Assembly (NCBI GenBank): GCA_027307235.1 | Contig: DAHUXH010000006.1 | Location: 1-64,000 of the forward strand | DNA: 64,000 bases | Reading direction: 5' to 3' | Source of the DNA: Vulcanimicrobiota bacterium | GTDB lineage: Bacteria > Vulcanimicrobiota > Vulcanimicrobiia > Vulcanimicrobiales > Vulcanimicrobiaceae | Shown here: in pieces, positions 45,215 through 58,827 of the stretch | How positions within the stretch are numbered: position 1 is the stretch's first letter | Layout: every line of letters begins with the position of its first letter | The notes under the pieces: model-generated | What the model was told of the DNA's origin: nothing | Databases searched by the model: none | Seen by the model: only the letters and a program-made list of their open reading frames with translations | Program-made: the position numbers and the translations under genes

Positions 45215-47275
45215 TCAGCCTGCAAGCGCCGTCGGCCTGCGCTCGCCGCCCTCGTCGAGGGTCAGCACGCCCGCGGGGTCGATTCCCATCTCCGGCGGAA
45301 TCTCTGCGAAGGCCAGAACGTCGACGCGGATGCCTGAGCGAATCAGGAAATCCGCCAGCAGCGGGCGCAGCGCGGCGGTGCTGACCAGCACCCCGCCCCG
45401 CTCCTGCGAGAGGAACGCCTGCACGCGCTCGCGGACGCACAGGGCCGTCTGGGGATCGGCGACACCGCCTCCGAGCGGCCCGCCGCCCCATTGGGCAGCC
45501 AGCCGGCGTTCCGTCTGCGGATCGAGCACCAGCGCCCGCAGGCGCGCTTCGCCGCGGCGCTGCAGGTGCGCGGGCACGATCGCCTTGCGCGCCGCTTCGG
45601 CCAGCTCGCGCGGTTCGCCCGTCCGGGCGTCGATCATCGCTTCGAGCACGGCGATCGGATCGCGCGGCCAGGCCCGCTCGCGCAAGAGCAGGGCGAATGC
45701 CTTGTGAACCGCGGCCAGCGGCAGCGTCTCCCCGCCGATCTCCTTGACGACGCTCGGAACGCTCGCGCGCAGATGTTCGAGCAGCGTGTGCAGTTCTTGG
45801 CGTCCGAGCAATGCCGGAGCGTGCGCGCGCGTCACCTCAGCCAGATGCGAACCGAGAATCGAGATCGGATCGAAGACGAGTGCGCCCGCGCCGCGGGCAG
45901 CGCTCTGCGCGCTCGGATCGATCCACTTTGCCGCAAGATCAAAGACCGGATCGCGTCCATCCTCACCGGCGATGCGCGCGAGCGTCGCCTCGTCGCCGAC
46001 CGCCAGCACGCGGTCGACGCGTAGATGCCCCTGCGCCGCCAGCGTGTCGCGGACGCGAATCGCGTACGTCGCGGGCTCACGATGAAGATCGTCGCGCAAA
46101 CGAACGCCCGGGAGCACGAGGCCGATCTCGGCGGCGAGCGCACGGCGCACCTCACCGATGCGGTCGAGTAACGCGTCGGCATTGGGCGACGCCAGCAACG
46201 GCGCGAGATCGGCGCCGAACTCGATGCTCACCGCATCCACGCCGACCAGCGCGATCGCGGTTTCCGGACGGCGCACAGCGCGGCGTTTGACATGCTCGCG
46301 CAATGCGGCGTCGGCGTCGCGCCGTCGTGTGCGGCGCACGTGCGCTGCCTGCGCTGCCGCGAACGCGGCCGCTCCAAGCGCAAGAAACACCGGACGCGGG
46401 AGCGCCGGAACGAACGCCAGGACCAGCAGCAATGCGCCGGCGCTGCGAAGTATCTCCGGCCGCGCGAAGAGTTGCGCCGCGAGATCAGCGCCGAGCGAAC
46501 CGTCGCCCGCGACGCGCGTGACCATCATGCCCATCGCGATCGAGATGAGAAATGCGGGAAGCGTCGTGACCAGCGCGTTGCCGATCGAGAGCAGCGCGAA
46601 GGTGGAGAGCGCATCGGCCGGAGACATCGCGTGATAGACCGTGCCGACCACGATTCCGCCCAGCAGATTGAGCACGACGATGACGAGCGCCGCGATCGCG
46701 TCGCCTTTGACGAACTTTCCGGCACCGTCCATCGCGCCAAAGAAATCCGCTTCCTTCTGCACCGCTTCGCGTTTCCGGCGCGCGCCGTCAGCATCGAGCA
46801 AGCCTGCGTGCACGTCGGCTTCGATCGCCATCTGCTTGCCGGGCATGGCATCGAGCGTGAAGCGCGCCGCGACCTCGGCGACGCGCTGCGAGCCGGTCGC
46901 GATCACGACGAATTGAATCGTCACCAGTATGACGAAGACGATCAAGCCGACCACCAGATTGTTCTGCACGACGAATTGACCGAAGGCGGGGATGATCGCA
47001 CCGACCCCGCCGGGTTCGGCGCCATGCGTGAGAATCACGCGCGTCGCCGACACGTCGAGCGCCAAGCGAAACAGTGTCGCGATGAGGAGTGCGGGCGCGA
47101 ACGCCGAGAACTCGAGCGGGTTCTCGACGGTCACGCTGAGCAAGAGCACCAGCGCCGCACCGAAGATGTCGACGCCGAGCAGCGTGTCGAGCAGCCACGG
47201 CGGCAACGGAATGATCAAGATCGCCACGATCGAAAGCAGCAGCGCCGCGAATGCGTAGATCGGAAGACGGCTCAT
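45215..47275 (-). CDS. flhA: Flagellar-type export gate protein FlhA
   Basis: The largest membrane component of the flagellar-type III export gate, 686 residues. The N-terminal part has eight helices and the conserved loop (RVAEVAARFTLDAMPGKQMAIEADVHAGLLDADGARRKR). The cytosolic domain (from about residue 330) keeps the order of FlhA subdomains (LLASPNADALLDRIGEVRRALAAEIGLVLPGVRLRD). It is coupled to flhB by a 4-bp overlap and is the last gene of the export cluster. Confidence 0.95.
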   Translation of the reverse strand: MSRLPIYAFAALLLSIVAILIIPLPPWLLDTLLGVDIFGAALVLLLSVTVENPLEFSAFAPALLIATLFRLALDVSATRVILTHGAEPGGVGAIIPAFGQFVVQNNLVVGLIVFVILVTIQFVVIATGSQRVAEVAARFTLDAMPGKQMAIEADVHAGLLDADGARRKREAVQKEADFFGAMDGAGKFVKGDAIAALVIVVLNLLGGIVVGTVYHAMSPADALSTFALLSIGNALVTTLPAFLISIAMGMMVTRVAGDGSLGADLAAQLFARPEILRSAGALLLVLAFVPALPRPVFLALGAAAFAAAQAAHVRRTRRRDADAALREHVKRRAVRRPETAIALVGVDAVSIEFGADLAPLLASPNADALLDRIGEVRRALAAEIGLVLPGVRLRDDLHREPATYAIRVRDTLAAQGHLRVDRVLAVGDEATLARIAGEDGRDPVFDLAAKWIDPSAQSAARGAGALVFDPISILGSHLAEVTRAHAPALLGRQELHTLLEHLRASVPSVVKEIGGETLPLAAVHKAFALLLRERAWPRDPIAVLEAMIDARTGEPRELAEAARKAIVPAHLQRRGEARLRALVLDPQTERRLAAQWGGGPLGGGVADPQTALCVRERVQAFLSQERGGVLVSTAALRPLLADFLIRSGIRVDVLAFAEIPPEMGIDPAGVLTLDEGGERRPTALAG

Positions 47276-48288
47276 GCGCGCAATGCCCCCGCGCGTGTCA
47301 GCGCTGCCACGATCTCGGCTACCGCGACGTAGCTCTGCACGGCGATCGGATCGCCGGCGCGCGCGGCGGCGTGCAGTTCGCGCGCCAGCGCCACGTTCTC
47401 GACGACCGGGATGGCATGCCGTGCGGCGATTTCACGAACGCGCAATGCTTGTTCGTCGATCGCGCTCACGAGCACAACCGGTACCGGAACGTCGGGCGGC
47501 CGGTAGTCGAGCGCCACCGCGACGTGGGTCGGATTGACGACGACGAACGCGGCATCTTTGGTGCGCGCGATCGCGCCCCGGGAGAGCTCGCGGTGCAACT
47601 GCCGGCGGCGCGAGCGCGCCTGCGGATCGCCGTCGTGCTCCTTGATTTCGCGCTTGAGTTCCGCGAAGCTCATGCGCAGCTTGCGCAGCCACGACGCGCG
47701 CACGAGCAAATAGTCGAGACCAGCGAACAGCGCACCGGCGGCGATGCACACTCCGACGATGCGAACGATTCCGCCCCACGCCGTCTCCGCCAGCGCGCGC
47801 ACGTCGCCACTCTCCAGTGCCGCGCCGAAGATTGCGAGGATCGCCGGAGCGGCGGCGCACACCGCGCACGTGAATGCGACCGCGGCCCGAACAAGCGCAA
47901 TCGCACTCTCACGCGAGAACATGCGCTTGAACCCGGCGACCGGATTGCAGCGTTCGAACTTCAGGGAGATCGCAACGACGCGCACGCCGCCGCTTTGCGC
48001 CAATCCCGCGCACGCGGCGCCGGCCCCGGCGAGCGCGACGGTCGCGAGCGCGCACGCGAGCACGATCGCGAGGCGACCGCCGTCGATTCCGCCGCTCGCC
48101 GCCGCCATCAGCGCCGAACGCGACGCGTCACCGATCGTGCCGGCGAGCGCGGCGCACGCGACACTGCCCGCGCACGCGGCCGCGACCGCCGTGACTTCCT
48201 GCGAGCGCGCGATGTTACCGTCGCGCTTGGCCTTGGCGATGCGCGACGGCGTCGGCGCGAACGACTTCTCGCCGGCCGGCTCATTCAT
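47272..48288 (-). CDS. flhB: Flagellar-type export switch protein FlhB
   Basis: A 338-residue export-gate protein that switches substrate class after self-cleavage. The N-terminus has the family signature APTPSRIAKAKRDGNIARSQEV. Four helices follow. The cytosolic domain contains the autocleavage motif NPTH (residues 252-255, FVVVNPTHVAVAL). ATG 48288 overlaps the fliR stop. An intact NPTH argues that substrate switching, hence secretion of at least two substrate classes, is retained. Confidence 0.95.
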   Translation of the reverse strand: MNEPAGEKSFAPTPSRIAKAKRDGNIARSQEVTAVAAACAGSVACAALAGTIGDASRSALMAAASGGIDGGRLAIVLACALATVALAGAGAACAGLAQSGGVRVVAISLKFERCNPVAGFKRMFSRESAIALVRAAVAFTCAVCAAAPAILAIFGAALESGDVRALAETAWGGIVRIVGVCIAAGALFAGLDYLLVRASWLRKLRMSFAELKREIKEHDGDPQARSRRRQLHRELSRGAIARTKDAAFVVVNPTHVAVALDYRPPDVPVPVVLVSAIDEQALRVREIAARHAIPVVENVALARELHAAARAGDPIAVQSYVAVAEIVAALTRAGALRA

Positions 48289-49010
48289 CGGTGCGCTCCT
48301 TCGAGAAACGGCATGGAGAGCCACGGGTGCGCCGAGCGCGCGATCGCGAGCGGGACCGCGATCAGCGTCGCCGTCAGCGCGGCCGCGAAGACCACCGGAA
48401 ATGCCAGCGTGAACGACGAGAAACGCGGGATGACGCGCGAAAGGATGCCGAACGTGACGTGCACGACCAGCGCGAGCGCAATCGCCGGTCCCGCGATCGC
48501 CAATGCCGCGCCGACGACGGCAACGGGAAGCGCGAACGCGAAATCGCGCAGGCCGTGCACCGCGATCGCGGCCCCGGCGGGAACGCGCCGGAAACTCTCG
48601 GCGAACGCCACGATCACCACACGATAGCCGCCCAACAAGAAGAACCCGGCGGTGAACGTCATCGACCAGATGCGCCCGAAACCCGATGGCGCGTAGAGCC
48701 GCGCGCTCGGCATCGCGCCGCGAATGCCGACGTAGTCGTCGAGCATGCGGCCGGCCGTGTACGCGGCGTCGTAGAGCACCGACGCGGCGCAGCCGATGCA
48801 CCAGCCGATCGCGCCCTCGAGCGCCAGCGCGAAGACATAGGCAATTCCGCTCGGCGCCTGGGTCGCGCGGGATGCCGGAGCGAGCGCGATCGCGAGCACG
48901 AGCGCAAGCCCGGCGCGCGCGATACGCGGCACGTCTGGATACGAGAAACCCGGCGCCTTCGCCATGAATCCGGCGCAGCGCGCGAACACCAGCGCGAAGA
49001 CCGCGCTCAC
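48285..49010 (-). CDS. fliR: Flagellar-type export protein FliR
   Basis: A 241-residue gate component with six helices (FALVFARCAGFMAKAP, ARAGLALVLAIALAP, YVFALALEGAIGWCIGCAASVL, GFFLLGGYRVVIVAFAESF, ALPVAVVGAALAIAGPAIALALVVHVTFGILSRVIP). A GTG at 49010 that overlaps the fliQ stop (GTGA) is chosen as the start. A longer frame would run into fliQ. It forms the central export pore with FliP and FliQ. Confidence 0.9.
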   Translation of the reverse strand: MSAVFALVFARCAGFMAKAPGFSYPDVPRIARAGLALVLAIALAPASRATQAPSGIAYVFALALEGAIGWCIGCAASVLYDAAYTAGRMLDDYVGIRGAMPSARLYAPSGFGRIWSMTFTAGFFLLGGYRVVIVAFAESFRRVPAGAAIAVHGLRDFAFALPVAVVGAALAIAGPAIALALVVHVTFGILSRVIPRFSSFTLAFPVVFAAALTATLIAVPLAIARSAHPWLSMPFLEGAHR

Positions 49011-49276
49011 GTGCCGTTCGCAAGCATGGGAATGCGTGCGATTACGTCGTCGAAGAGCTGCACGCAAAGGTGGAAGCCGAACGGCCCGCACGCGGCGAGC
49101 GCACAGCCCACGACAAGAAACTTCGGCAACAGCGTGAGCGTCTGTTCCTGTACCTGCGTGGCAGCTTGCATCGCAGCGACCACGGTGCCGACCGCCGCCG
49201 CGAGCGCCAGCAGGGGAAGCGCCAGGATCGCGGTGACCACGACCGTTTCGCGCAGCAGCGCATCGAAAGCTTCCAT
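49007..49276 (-). CDS. fliQ: Flagellar-type export protein FliQ
   Basis: An 89-residue two-helix protein typical of FliQ (LLRETVVVTAILALPLLALAAAVGTVVAAMQAATQVQEQTLTLLPKFLVVGCALAACG). The QATQVQEQTL block between helices is the family hallmark. In most genomes it directly follows fliP; here about 1.77 kb (metF, a gene-tail copy and a toxin-antitoxin pair) separate the two. Confidence 0.95.
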   Translation of the reverse strand: MEAFDALLRETVVVTAILALPLLALAAAVGTVVAAMQAATQVQEQTLTLLPKFLVVGCALAACGPFGFHLCVQLFDDVIARIPMLANGT

Positions 49277-49336: not shown

Positions 49337-50257
49337 TTACGAGTAGCGCGTGCCGAGCAGGTGCGCGGCGTCGAACTGCGGACGCCATGCCGACGCGGCC
49401 AGCAGCGCGGAAACGATCGCGCGCGTCGCCGGCGACTTGTTCAACGTATAGAAGTGAATGCCGGGCGCGCCGCGCGCGAGGAGGTCGGTGCATTGCAGCA
49501 CCGCGTAGGCGACGCCGAGATCTTCAACCGCGTCCACCTGCCCGCGACGCGCTTCGAGCTCGACCAGCAGCTTGGGCGGGATCGTCGCTCCGCACATCGC
49601 GGTGAACCGTGCCAACTGCTCGTAGTTCGTGATCGGCATGATGCCGGGGATGATCGGCACGGTGATGTCCGCCGCACGTGCGCGCCGCACGAAATCAAAG
49701 TATCTGTCATTGTCGAAAAACAGTTGCGTGATGAGAAACGATGCACCCGCGTCGACCTTGTCCTTCGCACGACGCAGATCGTCGTCGGCGCTCGCTGCTT
49801 CGACGTGCGTTTCCGGATAGGCGGCGGCGCCGATGCAAAAGTCGTAACTGCGATGCAGCATCGCGATCAGTTCGCTCGCGTGGGCGAAGCCGCCAACCGC
49901 CGGAGCGAAGCTCGTCTGCCCCTTGGGCGGGTCGCCGCGCAGTGCTAGGACGTTTTCGATCTTCGAGCGCGTGAGATCGTCGAAGAGCGCACGCAACTCA
50001 GCACGCGAGGAGCCGACGCAGGTGACATGGGCCAACACCGTTAGGCCGATGTCATGCGCGATTTGCTTGGCGAGCGCCACGGTGCGCTCGCGCGTCGAGC
50101 CGCCCGCGCCATACGTGATCGAAACGAAGGCCGGGCGCAACGGCCGCAGCGCTTCGACCGTGCGGCGAACCTGCTCGAACCCCGCTTCATCCTTGGGCGG
50201 AAAGAATTCGAAGGAGAAGAACGGCCGAACCGAATCCAGAGCGTCGCTGATACGCAT
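49337..50257 (-). CDS. metF: 5,10-methylenetetrahydrofolate reductase
   Basis: A 306-residue FAD-dependent TIM-barrel enzyme reducing methylene-THF to methyl-THF for methionine synthesis. The blocks are SFEFFPPKDE (catalytic Glu), FVSITYGAGGSTRERT, ENVLALRGDPP, GAAAYPETHVEA and FLITQLFFDN. It sits inside the flagellar export cluster between fliQ and the copied tail of fliP, an unusual site for a housekeeping gene. No clear ribosome-binding sequence precedes its ATG. Confidence 0.93.
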   Translation of the reverse strand: MRISDALDSVRPFFSFEFFPPKDEAGFEQVRRTVEALRPLRPAFVSITYGAGGSTRERTVALAKQIAHDIGLTVLAHVTCVGSSRAELRALFDDLTRSKIENVLALRGDPPKGQTSFAPAVGGFAHASELIAMLHRSYDFCIGAAAYPETHVEAASADDDLRRAKDKVDAGASFLITQLFFDNDRYFDFVRRARAADITVPIIPGIMPITNYEQLARFTAMCGATIPPKLLVELEARRGQVDAVEDLGVAYAVLQCTDLLARGAPGIHFYTLNKSPATRAIVSALLAASAWRPQFDAAHLLGTRYS

Positions 50258-50385: not shown

Positions 50386-50724
50386 TCAGGAGAGTGCGTC
50401 AGCCAGCGCCTTCGGTTTCCTGGAGATCGCGAGCAACAGCGTCATCGTGCCGGGTGCGGGATGCTTGCGTCCTTGCTCCCACTCTTGCACGCTACGTAGC
50501 GGAACACGGTAACGCCGCGCAAACTCCTCTTGCGTAAGACCGAGACGCTCGCGAAGGGCACGCACATTCACATTGCGGACAAAGCGCGCGCTATCACTAA
50601 ATTCGAAATCCCGGTCGCCGTCTTCTTCCTTCCACTTCTGGATTTGCGCTTCTGTCGGCCGCCGGTAGCCTTTGGGCAGTTTGACCGGTTCAAGTTCAGA
50701 AAGTTTCTTTCTCACAATAGCCAC
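50386..50724 (-). CDS. XRE-type antitoxin of BrnT module
   Basis: A 112-residue DNA-binding protein. The N-terminus resembles BrnA-like linker segments (GYRRPTEAQIQKWKEEDGDRDFEFSD); a helix-turn-helix of XRE type follows (RALRERLGLTQEEFARRYRVPLRSVQEWEQGRKHP). It would neutralise the adjacent toxin and repress the module. The start (GTG 50724) lies 29 bp inside the toxin gene, so the two are translationally coupled. Local GC is lower than in the flagellar genes. Confidence 0.85.
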   Translation of the reverse strand: MAIVRKKLSELEPVKLPKGYRRPTEAQIQKWKEEDGDRDFEFSDSARFVRNVNVRALRERLGLTQEEFARRYRVPLRSVQEWEQGRKHPAPGTMTLLLAISRKPKALADALS

Positions 50725-51004
50725 GGTAAATTTTTCGCTCCCTTCTCGACGCAGGCCGAGCCGAAATAATGCGCCTGCAGGATCCGCGCGGAGTCCAAAT
50801 GACGGCGAGTATCACAGAGCCAACCGCGCCTACCGCGACGAAACGTTGCTCGCCGAAGTCTTCGTTACGGTTCTCCTCTTCGAGGTAATCACCGAGAAAC
50901 ACGTGGGCGGCGAAGTCAAAACCAAATCCCCGCAGCAGTGCGTTCCTTGCACTCTTTCGTTCGTCCCATTCAACCCCGTCAAACTCGCCGTCCATACATA
51001 CCAT
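50696..51004 (-). CDS. brnT: BrnT family toxin
   Basis: A 102-residue RelE-fold RNase toxin of the BrnT family: VEWDERKSARNALLRGFGFDFAAHVF at the start, EDFGEQRFVAVGAVGSVILAVIW in the middle and the hallmark RRIISARPASRRERKIY at the end. It cleaves RNA under stress. A second Met at residue 4 (50995) may be the true start of a leaderless transcript, given the promoter position. It precedes its antitoxin, the usual BrnT order. Confidence 0.9.
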   Translation of the reverse strand: MVCMDGEFDGVEWDERKSARNALLRGFGFDFAAHVFLGDYLEEENRNEDFGEQRFVAVGAVGSVILAVIWTPRGSCRRIISARPASRRERKIYRGYCEKETF

Positions 51005-51045: not shown

Positions 51046-51702
51046 CTAGCGGAAGCTCGCGGCAACGCCTCCGCAGACCAGGGCCCAGCCGTCGACCATT
51101 ACGAAGAGCAAGAGCTTGACCGGCATTGAGACGATCGGCGGGCTCAACATCATCATCCCCAAACCCATCAGCATCGCTGCCACCGCAAGATCGATGGCGA
51201 CGAACGGCAGATAGAGGGCGAAGCCGATAGCAAACGCCGCACGCAGTTCGCCGACGACGAAGGCAGGCACGAGCACGTAGAACGGGGCGCGCGACGCAGG
51301 CTCCGCGCCGCGGTGCGCGACCCGCTCGAAGAGCATCATGTCGGCGACACGCGTCTGACGCACCATGAAATCGCGTAACGGACGCGAGGCACGGTCGATG
51401 AACTGCGCCTGCGCGATCGCACCATGGCTATAGGGCGCGATCGCTTCGCCGGAGATCCGTTCGAAGGTCGGCGCCATGATCACCATCGTCAGCACGAGCG
51501 CGATGCCGGCGAGCACGGCGTTGGGCGGTAGAGATGGCGCGCCGATCGCCGAGCGCACCAGCGAGAGCACGACGACGATACGCACGAACGACGTACACAT
51601 GACGAGCAGAAACGGCGCGACACCGAGCAGCGTGAGCGCGACGAGGACATCGAGCGGGACGGCACCGTGCGCGTGGCCGGCGATTGCGAGCAAGTCCGAC
51701 AT
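51046..51702 (-). CDS. fliP: Flagellar-type export protein FliP
   Basis: A 218-residue export-pore protein with four helices. The blocks are [131 protein letters not shown]. The intact 3' end is one of the two 99-bp repeats. The ATG is preceded within 3 bp by a 30-bp perfect palindrome and has no free Shine-Dalgarno, so its translation may be controlled. fliO, the usual partner, is not seen. Confidence 0.95.
   Translation of the reverse strand: MSDLLAIAGHAHGAVPLDVLVALTLLGVAPFLLVMCTSFVRIVVVLSLVRSAIGAPSLPPNAVLAGIALVLTMVIMAPTFERISGEAIAPYSHGAIAQAQFIDRASRPLRDFMVRQTRVADMMLFERVAHRGAEPASRAPFYVLVPAFVVGELRAAFAIGFALYLPFVAIDLAVAAMLMGLGMMMLSPPIVSMPVKLLLFVMVDGWALVCGGVAASFR
51053..51151 (-). repeat. Direct repeat A, copy 1 (3' end of fliP)
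   Basis: Nearly the last 33 codons of fliP; 99 bp identical to 50276-50374. Between the copies lie only the BrnT/antitoxin genes and their promoter. Confidence 0.95.
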
Positions 51703-51760: not shown

Positions 51761-52039
51761 CTATCCGGGCTTCTGAATCAGCTCCGTGACCCGCACGCCG
51801 AAATTCTCGTCGACGGCGATCACTTCGCCGCGCGCCACGAGCTTGTCGTTGACCAGCAAATCGACCGGACCGCCGGCCAGACGATCGAGTTCGATGATCG
51901 AACCGGTGCCGAGCTTGAGCACTTCAGCGACCGACATGCGGCACTTGCCGAGTTCGGCGCGCACGTGCAGCGGAACGTTCATCAACACTTCCAAATTGGA
52001 GGCGTCGACGGCGCCGCTCTTTATCAAGTCGTTGATCAT
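51761..52039 (-). CDS. fliN: Flagellar switch/C-ring protein FliN
   Basis: A 92-residue SpoA-domain protein: LEVLMNVPLHVRAELGKCRMSVAEVLKLGTGSIIELDRLAGGPVDLLVNDKLVARGEVIAVDENFGVRVTEL, highly similar to FliN across bacteria. It forms the lower C-ring and a docking site for the FliH-FliI ATPase complex. It is well conserved compared with FliM and FliG, which suits a role in export more than torque. GGGAGAA precedes the ATG; it lies 21 bp after fliM. Confidence 0.93.
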   Translation of the reverse strand: MINDLIKSGAVDASNLEVLMNVPLHVRAELGKCRMSVAEVLKLGTGSIIELDRLAGGPVDLLVNDKLVARGEVIAVDENFGVRVTELIQKPG

Positions 52040-52060: not shown

Positions 52061-52834
52061 CTAGTGAATGATGAAGGCATACTGACTGCCGCGTACGCCA
52101 CAGGTTCCTCGCCCGAGCGCTGCACCCGCCACATTGAGCGTCGCGTGCTCGCTCACCTCTGAGCGCGCCGCGATATGGTCTCCGCACGCAAGCGTAAGCA
52201 GACGTGCCGCCGGGATGTCCCCGAGCGCGATCGACGCGCACAGTTCTATCTCGATATCACCAATATCGTCGAACCGCAGATTTCCATGAGTGAGCGCGGA
52301 GGGTTCGCGCGCGAGCGCCACGCCGATGCGCGCCTCCACCGGGCGCTCGAGCAAGATTTCAAAATAGGTCGCATACTCCCCGAGTGCGGCGCCCGGATCG
52401 ACCGCGAGCGGGTCACCGGCGCCGCAGACCGGGCTCAAGCATGTGGCAATGGCGCGCACCGCGCGCGCGAGAACTTCGCGTTCGATGCCGGAGAGCGTAC
52501 CGTCGCCGGGCGCGCGTTCGCCGAATGCGGCGGCGACGAGCGCCTGCGCGTCCTGCGGTCGCAAGACGATCGCCGCGTCGGCGACGTGGCCGCGCACCGT
52601 GAATAGCGATGCACCCGTGCAGATCGTCTCCCACGCGCGAGGGTCGGGAATGCGCGGTTCAAGCAACCGGACGGACGCCGTGCTCGCGTATGCCGACGAC
52701 AGCGTTTCGCGCATCGCATTTGCGACCAAGCAGGCGGCCGATACCGAAAAGAGCGAGCGCGCTTCAAATCGCGCGCGGCGCACGCGCCGTCCGCCGACGA
52801 TCGACGCTCCCGGTTCGAAAGTTAGGACGTTCAC
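52061..52834 (-). CDS. fliM: Divergent, short FliM/SctQ-like C-ring protein
   Basis: A 257-residue protein with a CheC-like middle region (SACLVANAMRETLSSAYASTASVRLLEP) and a C-terminal SpoA domain (IEIELCASIALGDIPAARLLTLACGDHIAA). Typical FliM is about 330 residues and begins with a LSQxEIDALL CheY-binding peptide, which is missing here. The GTG start overlaps the stop of the FlgF/G-like gene. Loss of the CheY-binding N-terminus suggests no chemotactic switching. SctQ is an alternative name. Confidence 0.7.
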   Translation of the reverse strand: MNVLTFEPGASIVGGRRVRRARFEARSLFSVSAACLVANAMRETLSSAYASTASVRLLEPRIPDPRAWETICTGASLFTVRGHVADAAIVLRPQDAQALVAAAFGERAPGDGTLSGIEREVLARAVRAIATCLSPVCGAGDPLAVDPGAALGEYATYFEILLERPVEARIGVALAREPSALTHGNLRFDDIGDIEIELCASIALGDIPAARLLTLACGDHIAARSEVSEHATLNVAGAALGRGTCGVRGSQYAFIIH

Positions 52835-53550
52835 TTGACGAGGTCCATCGACGTCTTGCTCGTCGAATCGCGCGCGGTGCGCACGGCGGTGAGCGCATCG
52901 AAGGCGATGTACGCTTGCGTCAGTTGTTCGAGACTCCGATCGATGTCGATGTTGCTCGCGCTCTTGCGAAACGGCGTGAGTTCAGCGAAGTTTCCGTCCT
53001 TCGCGAAACCGACGTGCGGCGGCACGCCGTCGGGTGCGAGGGAGTGTGCGGCGTCGAGCGGTCGCAGCGACGAACCGGCGGGAAAACGCGCGAGCGCGAT
53101 GCGGCCCACGGTGACGCGCAGACGTTCGCGCGCACCGCTGCGCGGATCGATGCTGTCGCGTGCATAGGAGAGCGTTCCGTCGCCGTCGATGCGGACATCG
53201 GCGACGCGGTCGAGTGCAACGTCGACCGGATCGATGCGCAGCGCCGCGAGCGCATCGCTTCCCGGCCGCGCGCCGCAGACCGGACGGCCCGAAGCATCAA
53301 CGAGCGCGCCGTCGTGCACATGAAAACGGCCATCGCGCGTGTAGACGCGCCGGCCCGCGTCGTCGAGTTCAAGAAAGAATGCATCGTTCGGAGGCGTGAC
53401 AGCGAGCGGATCGAGCGCGAGGCCGGCCGCTCCGGGCCGCTCGACGTCGCGATTCTCCGGCGTCGCACCCGGCGTGAAGGCTGCATCCGCATCACGCTTG
53501 CGGCTCTCGATGCGCTCGAAGGCGAAGGCGAACGCTGGATCGATCATCAT
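52831..53550 (-). CDS. FlgF/FlgG-like rod protein, divergent
   Basis: A 239-residue protein of the flagellar rod/hook family. The block FFLELDDAGRRVYTRDGRFHVHDGALVDASGRPVCG near residues 58-93 corresponds to the family 'TRxGxFxxDxxGxLVxxxGxxV.G' motif. The C-terminal helix (ASNIDIDRSLEQLTQAYIAFDALTAVRTARDS) corresponds to the usual NVDxVxEMxxMIxAxRAYExN helix. The canonical N-terminal helix is not conserved. It is coupled to neighbours by 4-bp overlaps at both ends. Confidence 0.65.
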   Translation of the reverse strand: MMIDPAFAFAFERIESRKRDADAAFTPGATPENRDVERPGAAGLALDPLAVTPPNDAFFLELDDAGRRVYTRDGRFHVHDGALVDASGRPVCGARPGSDALAALRIDPVDVALDRVADVRIDGDGTLSYARDSIDPRSGARERLRVTVGRIALARFPAGSSLRPLDAAHSLAPDGVPPHVGFAKDGNFAELTPFRKSASNIDIDRSLEQLTQAYIAFDALTAVRTARDSTSKTSMDLVK

Positions 53551-54104
53551 GACGCGGAGGCTTTCGCTTCGGCGACTAGGCGCACGCCGCGCAACGCGAG
53601 CGCGTAGCGCGCCTGCGCCAGCGCCTGCTCGACGCGCTCGCGCACGGCCGGCGGACAGATCGCCACCAGCCGCATCTGCTCGTCCGCGCGCTGCAAGACC
53701 ACGTGAACGCGCCCGCCCGCACCGTCAACGGCGAACGTCGCCGACCGGCGCGCAGCGTTGGGCCGCAAGAATGTGCGTTCGATCTTCCGCGCAAGCGGCG
53801 AGCGCGCGACACGCCGATCGCTCTGCTGCGTATCGTGTGCGTCCACGCGTGTTTCGCGGAATGTGGGTGCCGGGAGTCTCTCCGCTGACGTTCTTTCGAC
53901 CGCGCATTCGCGCCCGGATGCGCGCGGCGATCTGCGTGTGTCATTGCCTGCTGAAAGCAAGCCCGGCGCGGCGCCGTTGTGCGACGCATGGTCATGGGCC
54001 AAATGCAATGCGGAGAACCAGGCTTGTGAGAGCACGCGGCGATCGATGGCAGCGAGCGGTGCTTGCAGAATGTCGAACCGGAGATCGTCTTGAATCGAGT
54101 TCAT
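53547..54104 (-). CDS. Possible FliK-like protein
   Basis: A 185-residue protein with an Arg/Ser-rich, low-complexity middle and a folded C-terminal third (RSATFAVDGAGGRVHVVLQRADEQMRLVAICPPAVRERVEQALAQARYALALRGVRLV). That region resembles the C-terminal core of FliK-type hook-length/substrate-specificity proteins in its order of strands and the final 'RexLEqAlxxLrxaLxxxGlxL' helix. The position between rod and transglycosylase genes agrees. The similarity is weak, so the call is tentative. Confidence 0.35.
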   Translation of the reverse strand: MNSIQDDLRFDILQAPLAAIDRRVLSQAWFSALHLAHDHASHNGAAPGLLSAGNDTRRSPRASGRECAVERTSAERLPAPTFRETRVDAHDTQQSDRRVARSPLARKIERTFLRPNAARRSATFAVDGAGGRVHVVLQRADEQMRLVAICPPAVRERVEQALAQARYALALRGVRLVAEAKASAS

Positions 54105-54169: not shown

Positions 54170-54826
54170 TTACGGTTGTTGCGTCCGGTACTTTTCGTAA
54201 CTTGCGAGCACGTTCTGCACGTAGTTCTGTGTCTCGGCGTACGGCGGAACTCCATCGTATTTTTCGACCGCGCCGGGACCGGCGTTGTACGCGGCTACCG
54301 CGAGCTTCATGTCGCCGCCGAAGCGGTCGAGCAGACCGCGCAGATAGCGCGTGCCGCCCGCAACGTTCTGGACGGGGTCATACGCGTTGGCGACGCCCAG
54401 GCCCGCGGCCGTCCCCGGCATGAGCTGCATCAATCCTTGCGCCCCGACACGAGAGGTCGCATTCGCGTTGAAACCGGATTCGTTGGCGATCACCGCTTTC
54501 ACGAGCGCGGGATCGACGCCGTAGGCTCCCGCGTTGGCGGTCACAAGCCGCTCGATCTCCTCGGGAGGCACCATCGCGGGGGCATCCGCACGGGCACCCA
54601 ACGCGGCGGCCTCGTCGTTGAACGACGCTGCCGGGGTTCCACCCGCCGATGCCAGCGCCGCCTGGACCAGCGACGCGAAGCTTCCCGCGTTGCGCGGGTC
54701 GATGACCGGCAGGCCATCGATGCCGCTTCCCGCAGCGGGCCCGCTCGCAGGCGCCGGTGCCGCCGAGGCGCCGGTGATCTCCGCGATGCGCTGCTGGATG
54801 GCAGCGATGTTGCTTGCAATATCCAT
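54170..54826 (-). CDS. Lytic transglycosylase (SLT domain)
   Basis: A 218-residue peptidoglycan lytic transglycosylase. The SLT domain covers the C-terminal 110 residues: GVDPALVKAVIANESGFNANATSRVGAQGLMQLMPGTAAGLGV (catalytic Glu in ANESGF) and LAVAAYNAGPGAVEKYDGVPPYAETQNYVQNVL. The first 100 residues are Ala/Pro-rich, with no standard signal peptide. This suggests export through the flagellar-type system itself to open the cell wall for the rod, a job done elsewhere by FlgJ. It begins immediately after the fliI stop. Confidence 0.85.
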   Translation of the reverse strand: MDIASNIAAIQQRIAEITGASAAPAPASGPAAGSGIDGLPVIDPRNAGSFASLVQAALASAGGTPAASFNDEAAALGARADAPAMVPPEEIERLVTANAGAYGVDPALVKAVIANESGFNANATSRVGAQGLMQLMPGTAAGLGVANAYDPVQNVAGGTRYLRGLLDRFGGDMKLAVAAYNAGPGAVEKYDGVPPYAETQNYVQNVLASYEKYRTQQP

Positions 54827-56065
54827 CTAGTCTCCTTCCAGCATATCGGCAAGTCCGGCCAGTTCCGCCAGCATGCGCGCTGGCTGCGCCGGTCGAGCGT
54901 CCTGAAGCAGAAAGTCGTCGAGCACGGGTTGCGCCGCGACCGCCCGCGCCAGATCCGCTCGGGAACCGGCGATGCCGAGCGCGCGTGCGTCGGCGGTGCG
55001 TTCCAGCAGTTCGATCGCGCGCCGGACGGTCGCCGCCGCGCGGCGGTGCGCATCGTCGATGACGTCGTTCATGGTTCGGCTCGCACTGGCGCCAACGTCG
55101 ACGGCCGGAAACCGGTGGGCGCGCGCGAGCTGCGGCGAGAGCGCGACGTGTCCGTCGAGCAGCGAGCGCGCCGCATCGCTCACGGGATCGCGCGCGTCGC
55201 CATCGTCGAGCACGGTCGCGATCAGCGTGATCGATCCGCTGTGCGCAGGCCCGGCGATCTCGACGCAGCGCGCGAGTTCGGCGAAGACACTCGCCGGATA
55301 CCCGCCGCGTCCGACACTCTCTGCGCACGCAAGCGCAAGTTCGCGCTGCGCGGCGCAGAAGCGCGCGAGACTGTCCACGACCAGCAGCACGTCGAGTCCG
55401 CGACGGCGCAACGCATCGGCCTGCGCAAGCGCCGCACGCAACGCGCGCGTTCGTTCCGCCGGCGGACGGTCGCTGGTAGCGCAGATGATCGACGTTCTCG
55501 CGTCGCGGTGCGCGATCCATTCCTGTGCTTCGCGCCCGCGTTCGCCGACGAGCGCGATCACGCTCGCGTCGGCACCGATACCGCTCGCCAGGCAACGCAG
55601 CAGCGTCGATTTTCCAGCGCCCGGTGCGCCGAAGATGCCGATACGTGCGCCGCGTCCGATCGTGAGCAATCCGTCGATGACACGAACGCCCGTCCACCAC
55701 GGCGTGACGATCGGTGCGCGCGCCGCCGGTGCGGGAGCCGCGCGGACAAGCGGCACCCGCGCACCGTCGAGCGCAGGACCGTCGTCAAGCGGACGTCCCA
55801 AGGGATCGATGGCGCGGCCGAGCGCGACGGTACCGAGCACGAGTGCGAGCGCGCGCGGATCGGCAACGACAGCCGAACCCGCACCGATCGCGTCCAGAGC
55901 GCCGTGCATGGCGATCGACGCGCGCTCGCCGTGCACGGCCACGATCTCACCGCACGCCGAACCGCGCGCGGTCTCGATGCGCACGCCCGCGCCGATGCGC
56001 GCACAGGGAAACTCGGCGTGAACGAAACCGCCGCTTGCCGCGGTCACCGTTCCCCGTGCGATCAC
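54827..56065 (-). CDS. fliI: Flagellar-type export ATPase FliI
   Basis: A 412-residue F1-beta-like ATPase that energises export. The Walker A motif GAPGAGKST is at residues 146-154; LLVVDSLARFC gives Walker B. GERGREAQEWI, RTSIICATSDRPPAERTRAL and GGYPASVFAELARCVE are family blocks. It is about 30 residues shorter than common FliI proteins. It is coupled to fliH by a 4-bp overlap. Confidence 0.93.
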   Translation of the reverse strand: MIARGTVTAASGGFVHAEFPCARIGAGVRIETARGSACGEIVAVHGERASIAMHGALDAIGAGSAVVADPRALALVLGTVALGRAIDPLGRPLDDGPALDGARVPLVRAAPAPAARAPIVTPWWTGVRVIDGLLTIGRGARIGIFGAPGAGKSTLLRCLASGIGADASVIALVGERGREAQEWIAHRDARTSIICATSDRPPAERTRALRAALAQADALRRRGLDVLLVVDSLARFCAAQRELALACAESVGRGGYPASVFAELARCVEIAGPAHSGSITLIATVLDDGDARDPVSDAARSLLDGHVALSPQLARAHRFPAVDVGASASRTMNDVIDDAHRRAAATVRRAIELLERTADARALGIAGSRADLARAVAAQPVLDDFLLQDARPAQPARMLAELAGLADMLEGD

Positions 56066-56517
56066 GACGCGGTGTACGCCAGCAGCATCTCCACCCGCGC
56101 GCCGAGCGTCACGTCGAGAGATCCGTCACGCACGTCGATCACCGCGTCACCGCGGCGCAACGCCTCATCCGCGACGACCGGCACCATGAGATCGGCGAGC
56201 AGCGCGCACTCAGCCGGATGCGCGCGCACACGCAGCGGCTGCGCGTGCGCATACCTGTCGAGCGCGCGCACCACGATGCGCGCGATGTCGCATGGCTGCA
56301 GCAGCAGTTCGCGCCCGAGAATCTCCGCGACCACGTCGCCGCGCAAGCGTTCGACGGCGGCGTCGAGCGCATCGGCGATGCGCGCGTGAAAGAGCGCGAG
56401 GTCACGGCGCAGTTCGTCGCCTTCGTCATCCGGCGAGGCGGTTTCGCCGACGGGCTCCGGCACGGGCGCCGCTTGCGCGACCGGCATCTCCACCGCCACG
56501 GCGCGAGCGTCGCTCAA
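56062..56517 (-). CDS. fliH: FliH-like ATPase regulator, short
   Basis: A 151-residue protein with an Ala/Pro/acidic N-terminus, a central helix (LRRDLALFHARIADALDAAVERLRGDVVAEILGRELL) and a C-terminal V-ATPase-E-like domain (IARIVVRALDRYAHAQPLRVRAHPAECALL...RRGDAVIDVRDGSLDVTLGARVEML). FliH links FliI to the C-ring. Typical length is about 230, so the N-terminal coiled coil is reduced. The TTG start is inferred from frame; fliI overlaps its end. Confidence 0.7.
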   Translation of the reverse strand: MSDARAVAVEMPVAQAAPVPEPVGETASPDDEGDELRRDLALFHARIADALDAAVERLRGDVVAEILGRELLLQPCDIARIVVRALDRYAHAQPLRVRAHPAECALLADLMVPVVADEALRRGDAVIDVRDGSLDVTLGARVEMLLAYTAS

Positions 56518-56541: not shown

Positions 56542-58011
56542 TTAGGCATCCAGCAACACCTCGTGCGCCTGCGGAACGAAGCTCGCGTGCGCGCGCTGCA
56601 TGCGCGTGACGATGGCGCTGCGCTCGTGGGGCGGATAGAGATCGAGCACGGCGGCTGCCGTGGCAGCGGGTAGCGCGCTGATGACGGCCGCCACCGCGTG
56701 CGGCGGCTCGCCGGCGAGCGCACGGCGCACGTTCGCGGGTGCATACCCGGCAACGCTGCGTCTCGCGCGCGCGATCGACGCGCGCTCGCATGCGGTTCGC
56801 GCAAGCGTCAGCAGCGGCGGGTAGGCGACCCGCAGCGCGACGAGGGCGCCGATGACCCACACGAGCGTCGGAAGGAGCGGCACGATCGCGCCGTACGCGA
56901 GCCACCAGCCGTCACGTTTGCCGGCCGGCTCGTGCGTGAAGTCGACGGCTTGCACCGCCAGCGTGTCACCGCGCCGCGTATCGACTCCAAGCGTCGCCGC
57001 CGCGAACGCTCGCACCGCCGCCAGATCGGCCGCCCGGCGCGCATCGACGAAGACCGCAGCCGAAACGCGTGCAACACCGCCCGCTTCTTGCGTTGTGGTC
57101 AGTTCGCTCGTCAGGCTGCCGCGATCTTCGGTGCGAACGTCTTTGTCGTACCGCTTTCCGTCGCCGCTGTACTGCTCGACGTTTGAACTAGAGGTAATGG
57201 CGCTCGCGGAAAGCGGGACGCGCCGCTGCGTGGTGCTCGACGTCGCGCGCGGATCGCGGTCGATGCGCACGCGCACCAGCGCGACCCCGCTGCCGAAGGC
57301 CGTGTCGAGCGCCGACTGCAACGCGCGCTGCAAATCGCTCGCATCGTCCTCGCCGCTGCTCGCCGCGCCGAGCGCAATACCGCGATCGTCGACGATGGTC
57401 ACGTGCGCGGGATCGAGTCCCGGAACAGCCGCTGCCACGTAGCGGCGAATGCCGTCGATCGCGTCGCGCGAGAGGCGCGCGCCGGCGCGCGTCGTCAGCC
57501 GAACGCTGGCGCTGGCGTCATGTGATGTTTGATCGGCGAACTGCGCCTGCGTCGCCGGCGCGACGATGACGCGTGCGTCGTCGATGCCGTCGATGCCGCG
57601 CAGCCCAAGCTCGATGTCGCCAGCTAACCCCGTGCGCGCCTGTTCGTCGATCACCGATTGCGGGGTGAGTGCGCCGACGCTGGCGAGCGCCTCGCCGCTG
57701 CTCGCAACGTGCGTATGCGGTATCCCGCCGAGTGACAAGCGCAACAGCAGCGTGTTGCGCGCTTGGGCATCGACCACGATGTTGTCGGGCAGGGGCGTGA
57801 ACGGCACATTCCATGCCGCCAACCGTTCTTGCACCTCGAGCACTTGCTCGGGAAAGAGTTTCTGCGAGAAGAGCGGCACGCGCGCCGGATGCGCAGCTAC
57901 GCCTGCGATCACGGCGATGACGATGACCGCCGCCAGGGCTGCCGCGCCGCCCACGCGCACCGTGCGCGGCAGCGCGGCCACGCGGGCGGCGAACGTTTCC
58001 ATGCGCACCAT
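56542..58011 (-). CDS. fliF: FliF-FliG fusion, MS-ring protein
   Basis: A 489-residue MS-ring protein. Helix one (VGGAAALAAVIVIAVIAGVAA) is at residues 20-40; the ring-building motifs of FliF/YscJ span 45-215 (LFSQKLFPEQVLEVQERLAAWNVPFTPL, ARVIVAPATQAQFADQ). Helix two (WWLAYGAIVPLLPTLVWVIGALVALRVAY) is at 369-397. After a short linker, residues 424-489 resemble the FliG middle domain (ALAGEPPHAVAAVISALPAATAAAVLDLYPPHERSAIVTRM). The FliG torque domain is absent and no separate fliG exists in the window. Coupled closely after fliE. Confidence 0.8.
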   Translation of the reverse strand: MVRMETFAARVAALPRTVRVGGAAALAAVIVIAVIAGVAAHPARVPLFSQKLFPEQVLEVQERLAAWNVPFTPLPDNIVVDAQARNTLLLRLSLGGIPHTHVASSGEALASVGALTPQSVIDEQARTGLAGDIELGLRGIDGIDDARVIVAPATQAQFADQTSHDASASVRLTTRAGARLSRDAIDGIRRYVAAAVPGLDPAHVTIVDDRGIALGAASSGEDDASDLQRALQSALDTAFGSGVALVRVRIDRDPRATSSTTQRRVPLSASAITSSSNVEQYSGDGKRYDKDVRTEDRGSLTSELTTTQEAGGVARVSAAVFVDARRAADLAAVRAFAAATLGVDTRRGDTLAVQAVDFTHEPAGKRDGWWLAYGAIVPLLPTLVWVIGALVALRVAYPPLLTLARTACERASIARARRSVAGYAPANVRRALAGEPPHAVAAVISALPAATAAAVLDLYPPHERSAIVTRMQRAHASFVPQAHEVLLDA

Positions 58012-58013
58012 CG

Positions 58014-58292
58014 TCAAATTTGCATGCCGGTAATCGACTGCACGGCTTGCACGGTCCGTTGCGCCGTCGCGGTTGCGACCGACAGCACGACGTCGGCACG
58101 CGCGCGTTCGTACATCGCGTCGACGAGCGACCCATGCCCGGATGCAAACGCATCTTCGGCGTCGTTTGCGGCACCGAGCACGCCGCCGAGCGCATCGAGC
58201 GCCTTTGCGAAGAGTTCGCTCTGCGGCGCGGGCGAGGTGGTGGCGACAGTATCCGGCATGCTGGTGTCCGGCGTCAGATTCACGACCTTCAT
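58014..58292 (-). CDS. fliE: Flagellar basal-body protein FliE
   Basis: A 92-residue adaptor between the MS ring and the rod, and the first export substrate. The C-terminal two-thirds match FliE (SELFAKALDALGGVLGAANDAEDAFASGHGSLVDAMYERARADVVLSVATATAQRTVQAVQSITGMQ). The last helix has the usual 'A-x6-R-x-V-x-A-x-x-x-I-x-x-M-Q-I' pattern. It overlaps flgC by 4 bp. Confidence 0.85.
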   Translation of the reverse strand: MKVVNLTPDTSMPDTVATTSPAPQSELFAKALDALGGVLGAANDAEDAFASGHGSLVDAMYERARADVVLSVATATAQRTVQAVQSITGMQI

Positions 58293-58615
58293 GCGCGCTC
58301 CAGGTCGATCGTCTTCTCGGCCACCCGTTTGCCGACATCGAAAATGGATGCGTCAGCTTCATACGCGCGCGACGCGTTCATGACGGCGATCATCTCCGTC
58401 AGCGCATCGACGTTACTCCCGCGTTCGGTGTGCGTCCCCGTGAAGGTCACAAGCGCGGTGCCGTCGCGATCGCTCACGCGAAAATCCGGAACGCTGCGCG
58501 GATACGAACCGCGCGGTCCCGCAGCCTGCGCCGCGGCCATGTTGCGCGCCGCGACGTCGAGAGCGGCACGTTGCGCGGCCATGCCGCTCGCGGCGGTAGC
58601 GAGCAGATCGCTCAT
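58289..58615 (-). CDS. flgC: FlgC-like proximal rod protein, short
   Basis: A 108-residue rod protein. The N-terminal helix (DLLATAASGMAAQRAALDVAARNMA) and C-terminal helix (GSNVDALTEMIAVMNASRAYEADASIFDVGKRVAEKTIDLE) are clear FlgC signatures, including the NVD-x-x-x-EM motif. The middle domain is reduced to about 45 residues, against about 140 total in common FlgC. Confidence 0.8.
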   Translation of the reverse strand: MSDLLATAASGMAAQRAALDVAARNMAAAQAAGPRGSYPRSVPDFRVSDRDGTALVTFTGTHTERGSNVDALTEMIAVMNASRAYEADASIFDVGKRVAEKTIDLERA

Positions 58616-58827
58616 TTCGCCACCTGCTTGATCTCGCTCAAGCGCGCGTGCATCGCGCTCAGCACCGCTTCGGTGAACACCGCCTGCTGCGCGGTCTCAG
58701 CCATCGCGGTGTCGAGCGCGTGCGCTCCCGCTCCGGTGTTGGCGTGCGCCACCGAAGCAGCCGCGTGCGCGAGATGATCCGCGCTTGCGTCGAGCGCGCC
58801 TCGGAGAGATGAAGCTATGTCGTACAT
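58612..58827 (-). CDS. flgB: FlgB-like rod protein, very short
   Basis: A 71-residue protein consisting of little more than the two terminal helices of an FlgB-type rod protein (SLRGALDASADHLAHAAASVAHANTGA and AETAQQAVFTEAVLSAMHARLSEIKQVA). Typical FlgB is about 130 residues. Position directly before flgC and fliE supports the call. It is the first gene of the cluster; no obvious promoter fits in the 45 bp before it. Confidence 0.6.
   Translation of the reverse strand: MYDIASSLRGALDASADHLAHAAASVAHANTGAGAHALDTAMAETAQQAVFTEAVLSAMHARLSEIKQVAK

Follow-up and report, generated by a model that had tools for sequence, protein, structure and literature searches.

A natural fusion of FliF with the FliG middle domain in a second flagellar-type export locus of a Vulcanimicrobiota bacterium and its relatives

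The debate on the passage from rotary motor to secretion device rests mainly on the injectisomes, in which the rod genes, FliG and a large part of the C ring are gone. The described systems closest to the locus reported here are the natural FliF-FliG_M fusion of the Chlamydiaceae (Bergeron 2016, PMC4768692), the early-branching NF-T3SS of the Myxococcales, which are without FlgB, FlgC and FliE (PMC3459982), and the laboratory FliF-FliG fusions of Salmonella and Vibrio (PMC7355467, PMC11481574). A FliF-FliG_M fusion as such is therefore not new, and the statement in the first-pass annotation of this DNA that such fusions have mainly been seen in laboratory or spontaneous motility variants was incomplete, as the chlamydial fusion is natural. 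No published description of the second system was found in the open-access literature (subscription journals were outside the scope of the search); PMC7203096, in the part available, mentions Eremiobacterota in the context of photosynthesis. The class-wide FliF-FliG_M variant with an intact export operon described below is new.

The window (the whole stretch of 64,000 nucleotides that was analysed) lies on one (C18) of the 20 contigs of a 2.4-Mb genome. On its minus strand a second type III locus was found in the order flgC, fliE, fliF::fliG_M, fliH, fliI, a transglycosylase gene, an ORF without family, a flgF/G-like gene, fliM, fliN, fliP, metF, fliQ, fliR, flhB, and flhA. The features are as follows.

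58612..58827 (-): 71-aa protein in the flgB position (assigned by position only; conserved in relatives)
58289..58615 (-): FlgC-like short rod protein, 108 aa
58014..58292 (-): FliE, 92 aa
56542..58011 (-): FliF::FliG_M fusion (FliF2), 489 aa (from ORF frame, Pfam and conservation)
56593..56736 (-): FliG middle-domain segment of FliF2, residues 426-473 (from Pfam, AlphaFold/Foldseek and PDB profile)
56062..56517 (-): FliH
54827..56065 (-): FliI/SctN-type export ATPase
54170..54826 (-): lytic transglycosylase with SLT domain
53547..54104 (-): conserved ORF (orfK), candidate FliK-type regulator
52831..53550 (-): FlgF/FlgG-like rod protein
52061..52834 (-): FliM2, C-ring protein that has the FliM fold and lacks the CheY-binding helix at the N-terminus
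51761..52039 (-): FliN
51046..51702 (-): FliP
49337..50257 (-): MetF (MTHFR), within the operon
49007..49276 (-): FliQ
48285..48992 (-): FliR, start uncertain
47272..48288 (-): FlhB/SctU-type export switch
45215..47275 (-): FlhA of the second system

The export apparatus of the locus is a full set (FlhA, FlhB, FliP, FliQ, FliR, FliH, and FliI), and neither stators (MotA/MotB), nor a FliG torque domain, nor a secretin was found within it. In the comparison with NCBIfam models, FlhA, FliP, FliQ, and FliR scored as flagellar, FliP being the sole part above the cut-off; outside the curated ranges, FlhA gave 630 bits as FlhA vs 484 as SctV, FlhB 197 bits as FlhB vs 229 as SctU, and the ATPase 335 bits as FliI vs 355 as SctN. 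An open frame of 583 aa at first pointed to a FliR-FlhB fusion, which was rejected: FliR lies in a different frame from FlhB, and the two are thus separate genes. The position of orfK and the C-terminal pattern of its product, judged by eye, suggest a FliK-type regulator; no FliK or other profile in Pfam matched it. The 71-aa protein in the flgB position matched no Pfam family, FlgB included. This protein and the FlgC-like one (58612-58827 and 58289-58615, minus strand; 71 and 108 aa) are unusually short for rod-type proteins and comparable in length to the needle and inner-rod proteins of injectisomes. In nearly all sampled relatives metF is also located inside the operon. A BrnT-type toxin (PF04365) with a helix-turn-helix antitoxin is encoded between fliP and metF in the window (50386-51004, minus strand), unlike in several sampled relatives, where fliP and metF lie side by side. 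Many relatives have, separating the transglycosylase gene from the T3SS gene that follows, a gene for a secreted protein of ~550 aa with aspartyl-protease domains (PF13650; L037:8637-10343, L038:8496-10163, and the same place in L039, L040, L042, L049, L050, and L053), which may act as the machine's processing enzyme in the periplasm; it is absent from the window locus and from genus g5. Secretins, encoded outside the locus in all 16 genomes tested, may belong to pili.

FliF2 has two predicted membrane helices (TM1, residues ~20-40; TM2, ~373-396), and Pfam assigned YscJ_FliF to residues 41-214 (E 4e-24) and YscJ_FliF_C to residues 261-358 (E 1.5e-9); with both domains found, the periplasmic FliF region is not shortened. 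(In genus g35 [G083-G088] ~55 residues near query positions 255-312 are missing from FliF2, the gap lying inside one open frame of ~430-456 aa in several genomes.) Behind TM2, FliG_M was matched at residues 426-473 with E 5e-6 and 27.1 bits (cut-off 25), covering 48 of the 76 profile positions, and neither FliG_N nor FliG_C was matched anywhere in the 489 aa. The C-termini of 36 orthologous FliF2 proteins were searched with the same profile, and FliG_M was detected in every one (best E 7.4e-10). When a profile of the FliF2 C-terminus was compared with PDB chains, FliG was hit exclusively, over its middle domain and with weak E-values (0.011-0.5). The AlphaFold model of residues 365-489 had a mean pLDDT of 75; of its 15 best Foldseek matches in the PDB, 14 were FliG or motor-switch chains and one was MgtE, with probabilities up to 1.00 and weak E-values (0.06 and up) for this small domain, and in one of the matches 50 residues were superposed on Helicobacter pylori FliG at 1.0 Angstrom. 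A FliG profile aligned with the tail by hhalign covered 69 columns over the middle domain with a probability of 18% from shallow alignments. The related MgtE_N was considered in place of FliG_M and rejected as the weaker Pfam match, also in the orthologous C-termini. An ordinary FliF C-tail was likewise rejected, as profile comparison with the tails of canonical FliFs gave no match; the conserved tail found behind TM2 in those proteins is absent from FliF2.

The FliG_M segment is the best-conserved part of FliF2 (mean majority fraction 0.86 vs 0.76 for the FliF domain). Codon-position divergence placed fliF2 under strong purifying selection, the FliG_M segment most of all, and no second codon position in the segment was changed in four of five close pairs. 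A segment so conserved is not a chance match, and FliF2 is a genuine, selected FliF-FliG_M fusion. The first-pass annotation was right in the coordinates and reading frame of 56542-58011, in the likeness of residues 424-489 to the FliG middle domain, and in the lack of the torque-generating domain, and its view that the fusion is natural and fixed in the genome is supported.

FliM2 was matched only weakly, and in its C-terminal part, by sequence searches. Its AlphaFold model (pLDDT 78), however, matched a FliM structure over the full length with E 2e-11 and FliM middle domains with E ~1e-6, and as modelled FliM2 keeps the FliM fold. In the alignment with the canonical FliM of the same genome, FliM2 was without the N-terminal helix carrying EIDVLI, the established CheY-binding motif. 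The FliM-FliG interface is formed by the EHPQR loop of FliG and the GXXG loop of FliM (PMC7355467). At the aligned positions, FliF2 has EPPH, in place of the EHPQ(R) of FliG, and FliM2 has FGE; both are altered, and both are nearly invariant within the family.

The same genome encodes a canonical flagellum. Contig C10 carries FliF, FliH, FliI, the hook protein, MotA, MotB, FliN, FliP, FliQ, FliR, FlhB, and FlhA, together with a full-length FliG (FliG_N, FliG_M, and FliG_C) and a FliM with the full Pfam domain; flagellins and the P-ring protein FlgI are encoded on further contigs. The two systems have a homologous export core and a C ring in common; full-length FliG, MotA/B, full FliM, hook protein, P ring, and flagellin belong to the flagellum alone, and the FlhA of C10 is of a separate lineage. 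It had been noted that no other FliG is seen in the window, which is correct, and concluded that the rotor would be locked and produce no torque. Since a normal rotor is encoded on C10, this conclusion fails for the organism: fliG, motA, and motB all lie on that contig, and a rotor-less organism is ruled out. A full-length fliG elsewhere in the genome is what the first-pass annotation itself had named as refuting evidence, and its genome-level claim is refuted accordingly.

The second system was found throughout one class of Ca. Eremiobacterota, and its gene order was kept in all 20 sampled loci of the window's order, barring insertions and contig ends. Among 103 genomes of the order, FliF2 was found together with FliG in 45 and alone in 44, FliG alone in 4, and neither in 10 (28, 25, 1, and 6, respectively, among the genomes at least 90% complete); FliF2 is thereby present in 89 genomes vs 49 for FliG. 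In the sister family (f3), all 14 genomes had FliF2 and none had FliG, FliG_C included; the FliF2 tail is shorter there, and a similar segment is kept by eye, e.g., ERESPRTAAYVLSTLPSSLRERVL. The FliG torque domain was absent from the 44 FliF2-only genomes of the order, the MotB plug from the 9 FliF2-only genomes searched for it, and FlgI from the 10 searched. Flagellin above the cut-off was missing in 8 of 9 such genomes, the exception being G091 (86% complete). The FliF2 system thus stands alone in many genomes, and it occurs without a flagellum. Vulcanimicrobium alpinus WC8-2, the cultured species of the Eremiobacterota, is reported to have neither flagella nor a flagellin gene (PMC9758169). 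FlhA scores formed two classes, ~830-890 bits alongside FliG and ~600-665 bits alongside FliF2. The FliF2 system is present twice or three times in two genomes, G007 (L139, L054) and G067 (L138, L140); one of the copies is rearranged and has divergent halves. Three genomes of other classes of the phylum (G107, G134, and G136) gave 13 to 15 FlhA matches each, mostly to the cytoplasmic domain (profile positions ~320-655) and in frames of varied length up to 1954 aa; FlhA-C-like domains have apparently expanded into other proteins there.

In the FlhA tree (one gene, six SctV references, rooting uncertain), the second system and family f3 formed one clade with 100% support, apart from both the rhizobial/betaproteobacterial SctV and the present flagellar FlhA of the class, and attached near the flagellar FlhA of other classes of the phylum. 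A tree constrained to join the second-system FlhA with SctV was disfavoured (AU p 0.02, SH p 0.075), and derivation from the present flagellum of the class was rejected (AU p 4e-9). The position of the clade is compatible with descent of the second system from an older flagellum.

We consider it likely that the window holds the core genes of a second flagellar-type export machine that does not rotate, in which the fusion anchors a static FliM2/FliN2 ring. FliF2 would build the MS ring, and the middle domain of the cognate FliM2, as we infer, would dock onto the fused FliG_M (a predicted contact). The FliM2/FliN2 ring would then be attached straight onto the MS ring as a static C ring to which substrates are delivered for export; on top of it FliH/FliI and the FlhAB-FliPQR gate would operate. 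FliG_N would be dispensable because the fusion would stand in for the FliF-FliG joint, and FliG_C, the CheY-binding helix of FliM and the stators would have been lost because nothing would rotate. The role of the machine would be secretion, with a periplasmic conduit for the secreted proteins probably made from the short FliE/FlgC/FlgF-G-like rod proteins and the transglycosylase. The role of SctK in injectisomes may be taken here by the fused FliG_M. In genomes that have both systems, cross-talk between this machine and the canonical flagellum may occur.

Three other readings were weighed against this machine. FliF2 might serve the canonical flagellum as an alternative MS ring, with the FliG, stators and filament of that flagellum completing the structure; the co-occurrence of both sets in 45 genomes, that of the window included, would then be accounted for. 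We hold this to be very unlikely, since FliF2 is found without FliG in 44 genomes of the order and in the entire sister family, the FliF2-only genomes tested have neither MotB nor FlgI, the C-tail of canonical FliF is missing after TM2, and the locus has its own FliM, FliN, FliH, FliI, FliP, FliQ, FliR, FlhB, and FlhA. The absence of several motility parts, the short rod proteins and the toxin-antitoxin insertion between fliP and metF could also be read as decay of an old flagellum that has no function today; to this we give the least credence, given that the export-core genes are all intact and syntenic in the 20 sampled loci, that purifying selection on fliF2 is strong, chiefly in the FliG_M segment, and that more genomes of the order have kept FliF2 than FliG.

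A true injectisome-type (NF-T3SS) machine, delivering effectors into other cells, would fit the scores of FlhB and FliI, slightly higher with the SctU and SctN models than with the flagellar ones, as well as the loss of the CheY-binding helix from FliM2 and of the motility parts. Such a machine is unlikely all the same: the locus is without a secretin, it has FliE and FlgC, which are flagellum-specific markers in Abby and Rocha 2012 (PMC3459982), FlhA, FliP, FliQ, and FliR score as flagellar, and the constrained FlhA-SctV grouping was disfavoured (AU p 0.02, SH p 0.075, from one gene).

Returning to the non-rotating export machine, we propose tentatively, as a serious possibility, that the whole class turned an ancient flagellum into a dedicated, non-rotating secretion organelle by trimming FliG to the middle domain that binds FliM and welding this to FliF, independently of the injectisomes and of Chlamydia. 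If this is true, the class holds a living intermediate with the rod proteins retained and the motor gone. The system retains the export core, the short rod proteins, the fold of FliM and the middle domain of FliG, and lacks only the parts for torque, switching and propeller, class-wide and in many genomes without flagella; the intermediate is thus a testable one. The system also indicates that FliG_M has an important task in an export machine, namely suspending the FliM/FliN ring from the membrane ring, and that this task can be separated from torque. Flagellar marker genes, fliF, flhA, and fliP among them, are no guide to motility in the Eremiobacterota phylum.

Among the known systems, the Chlamydiaceae fusion resembles FliF2 in being natural and fixed, in having the FliG middle domain without the torque domain, and in occurring in bacteria without flagella. 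The chlamydial FliF, however, has ~330 aa with a shortened periplasmic part (PMC4768692), whereas FliF2 retains both FliF domains; few flagellar genes are left in the Chlamydiaceae, beside a true injectisome, whereas FliF2 stands in a complete flagellar-type export operon that also encodes FliM, FliN and rod proteins, and many of its carriers, unlike the Chlamydiaceae, have a separate normal flagellum. With the Myxococcales NF-T3SS (PMC3459982) the second system shares flagellum-derived export, the absence of motility parts and the absence of a secretin from the locus, but it differs in having FlgC, FliE, a FlgF/G-like protein, a transglycosylase and the FliG_M fusion. The laboratory fusions share the joining of FliF to FliG sequence; the Salmonella fusion strains reviewed in the papers cited keep torque with an altered directional bias, whereas FliF2 is a fusion with neither FliG_N nor FliG_C.
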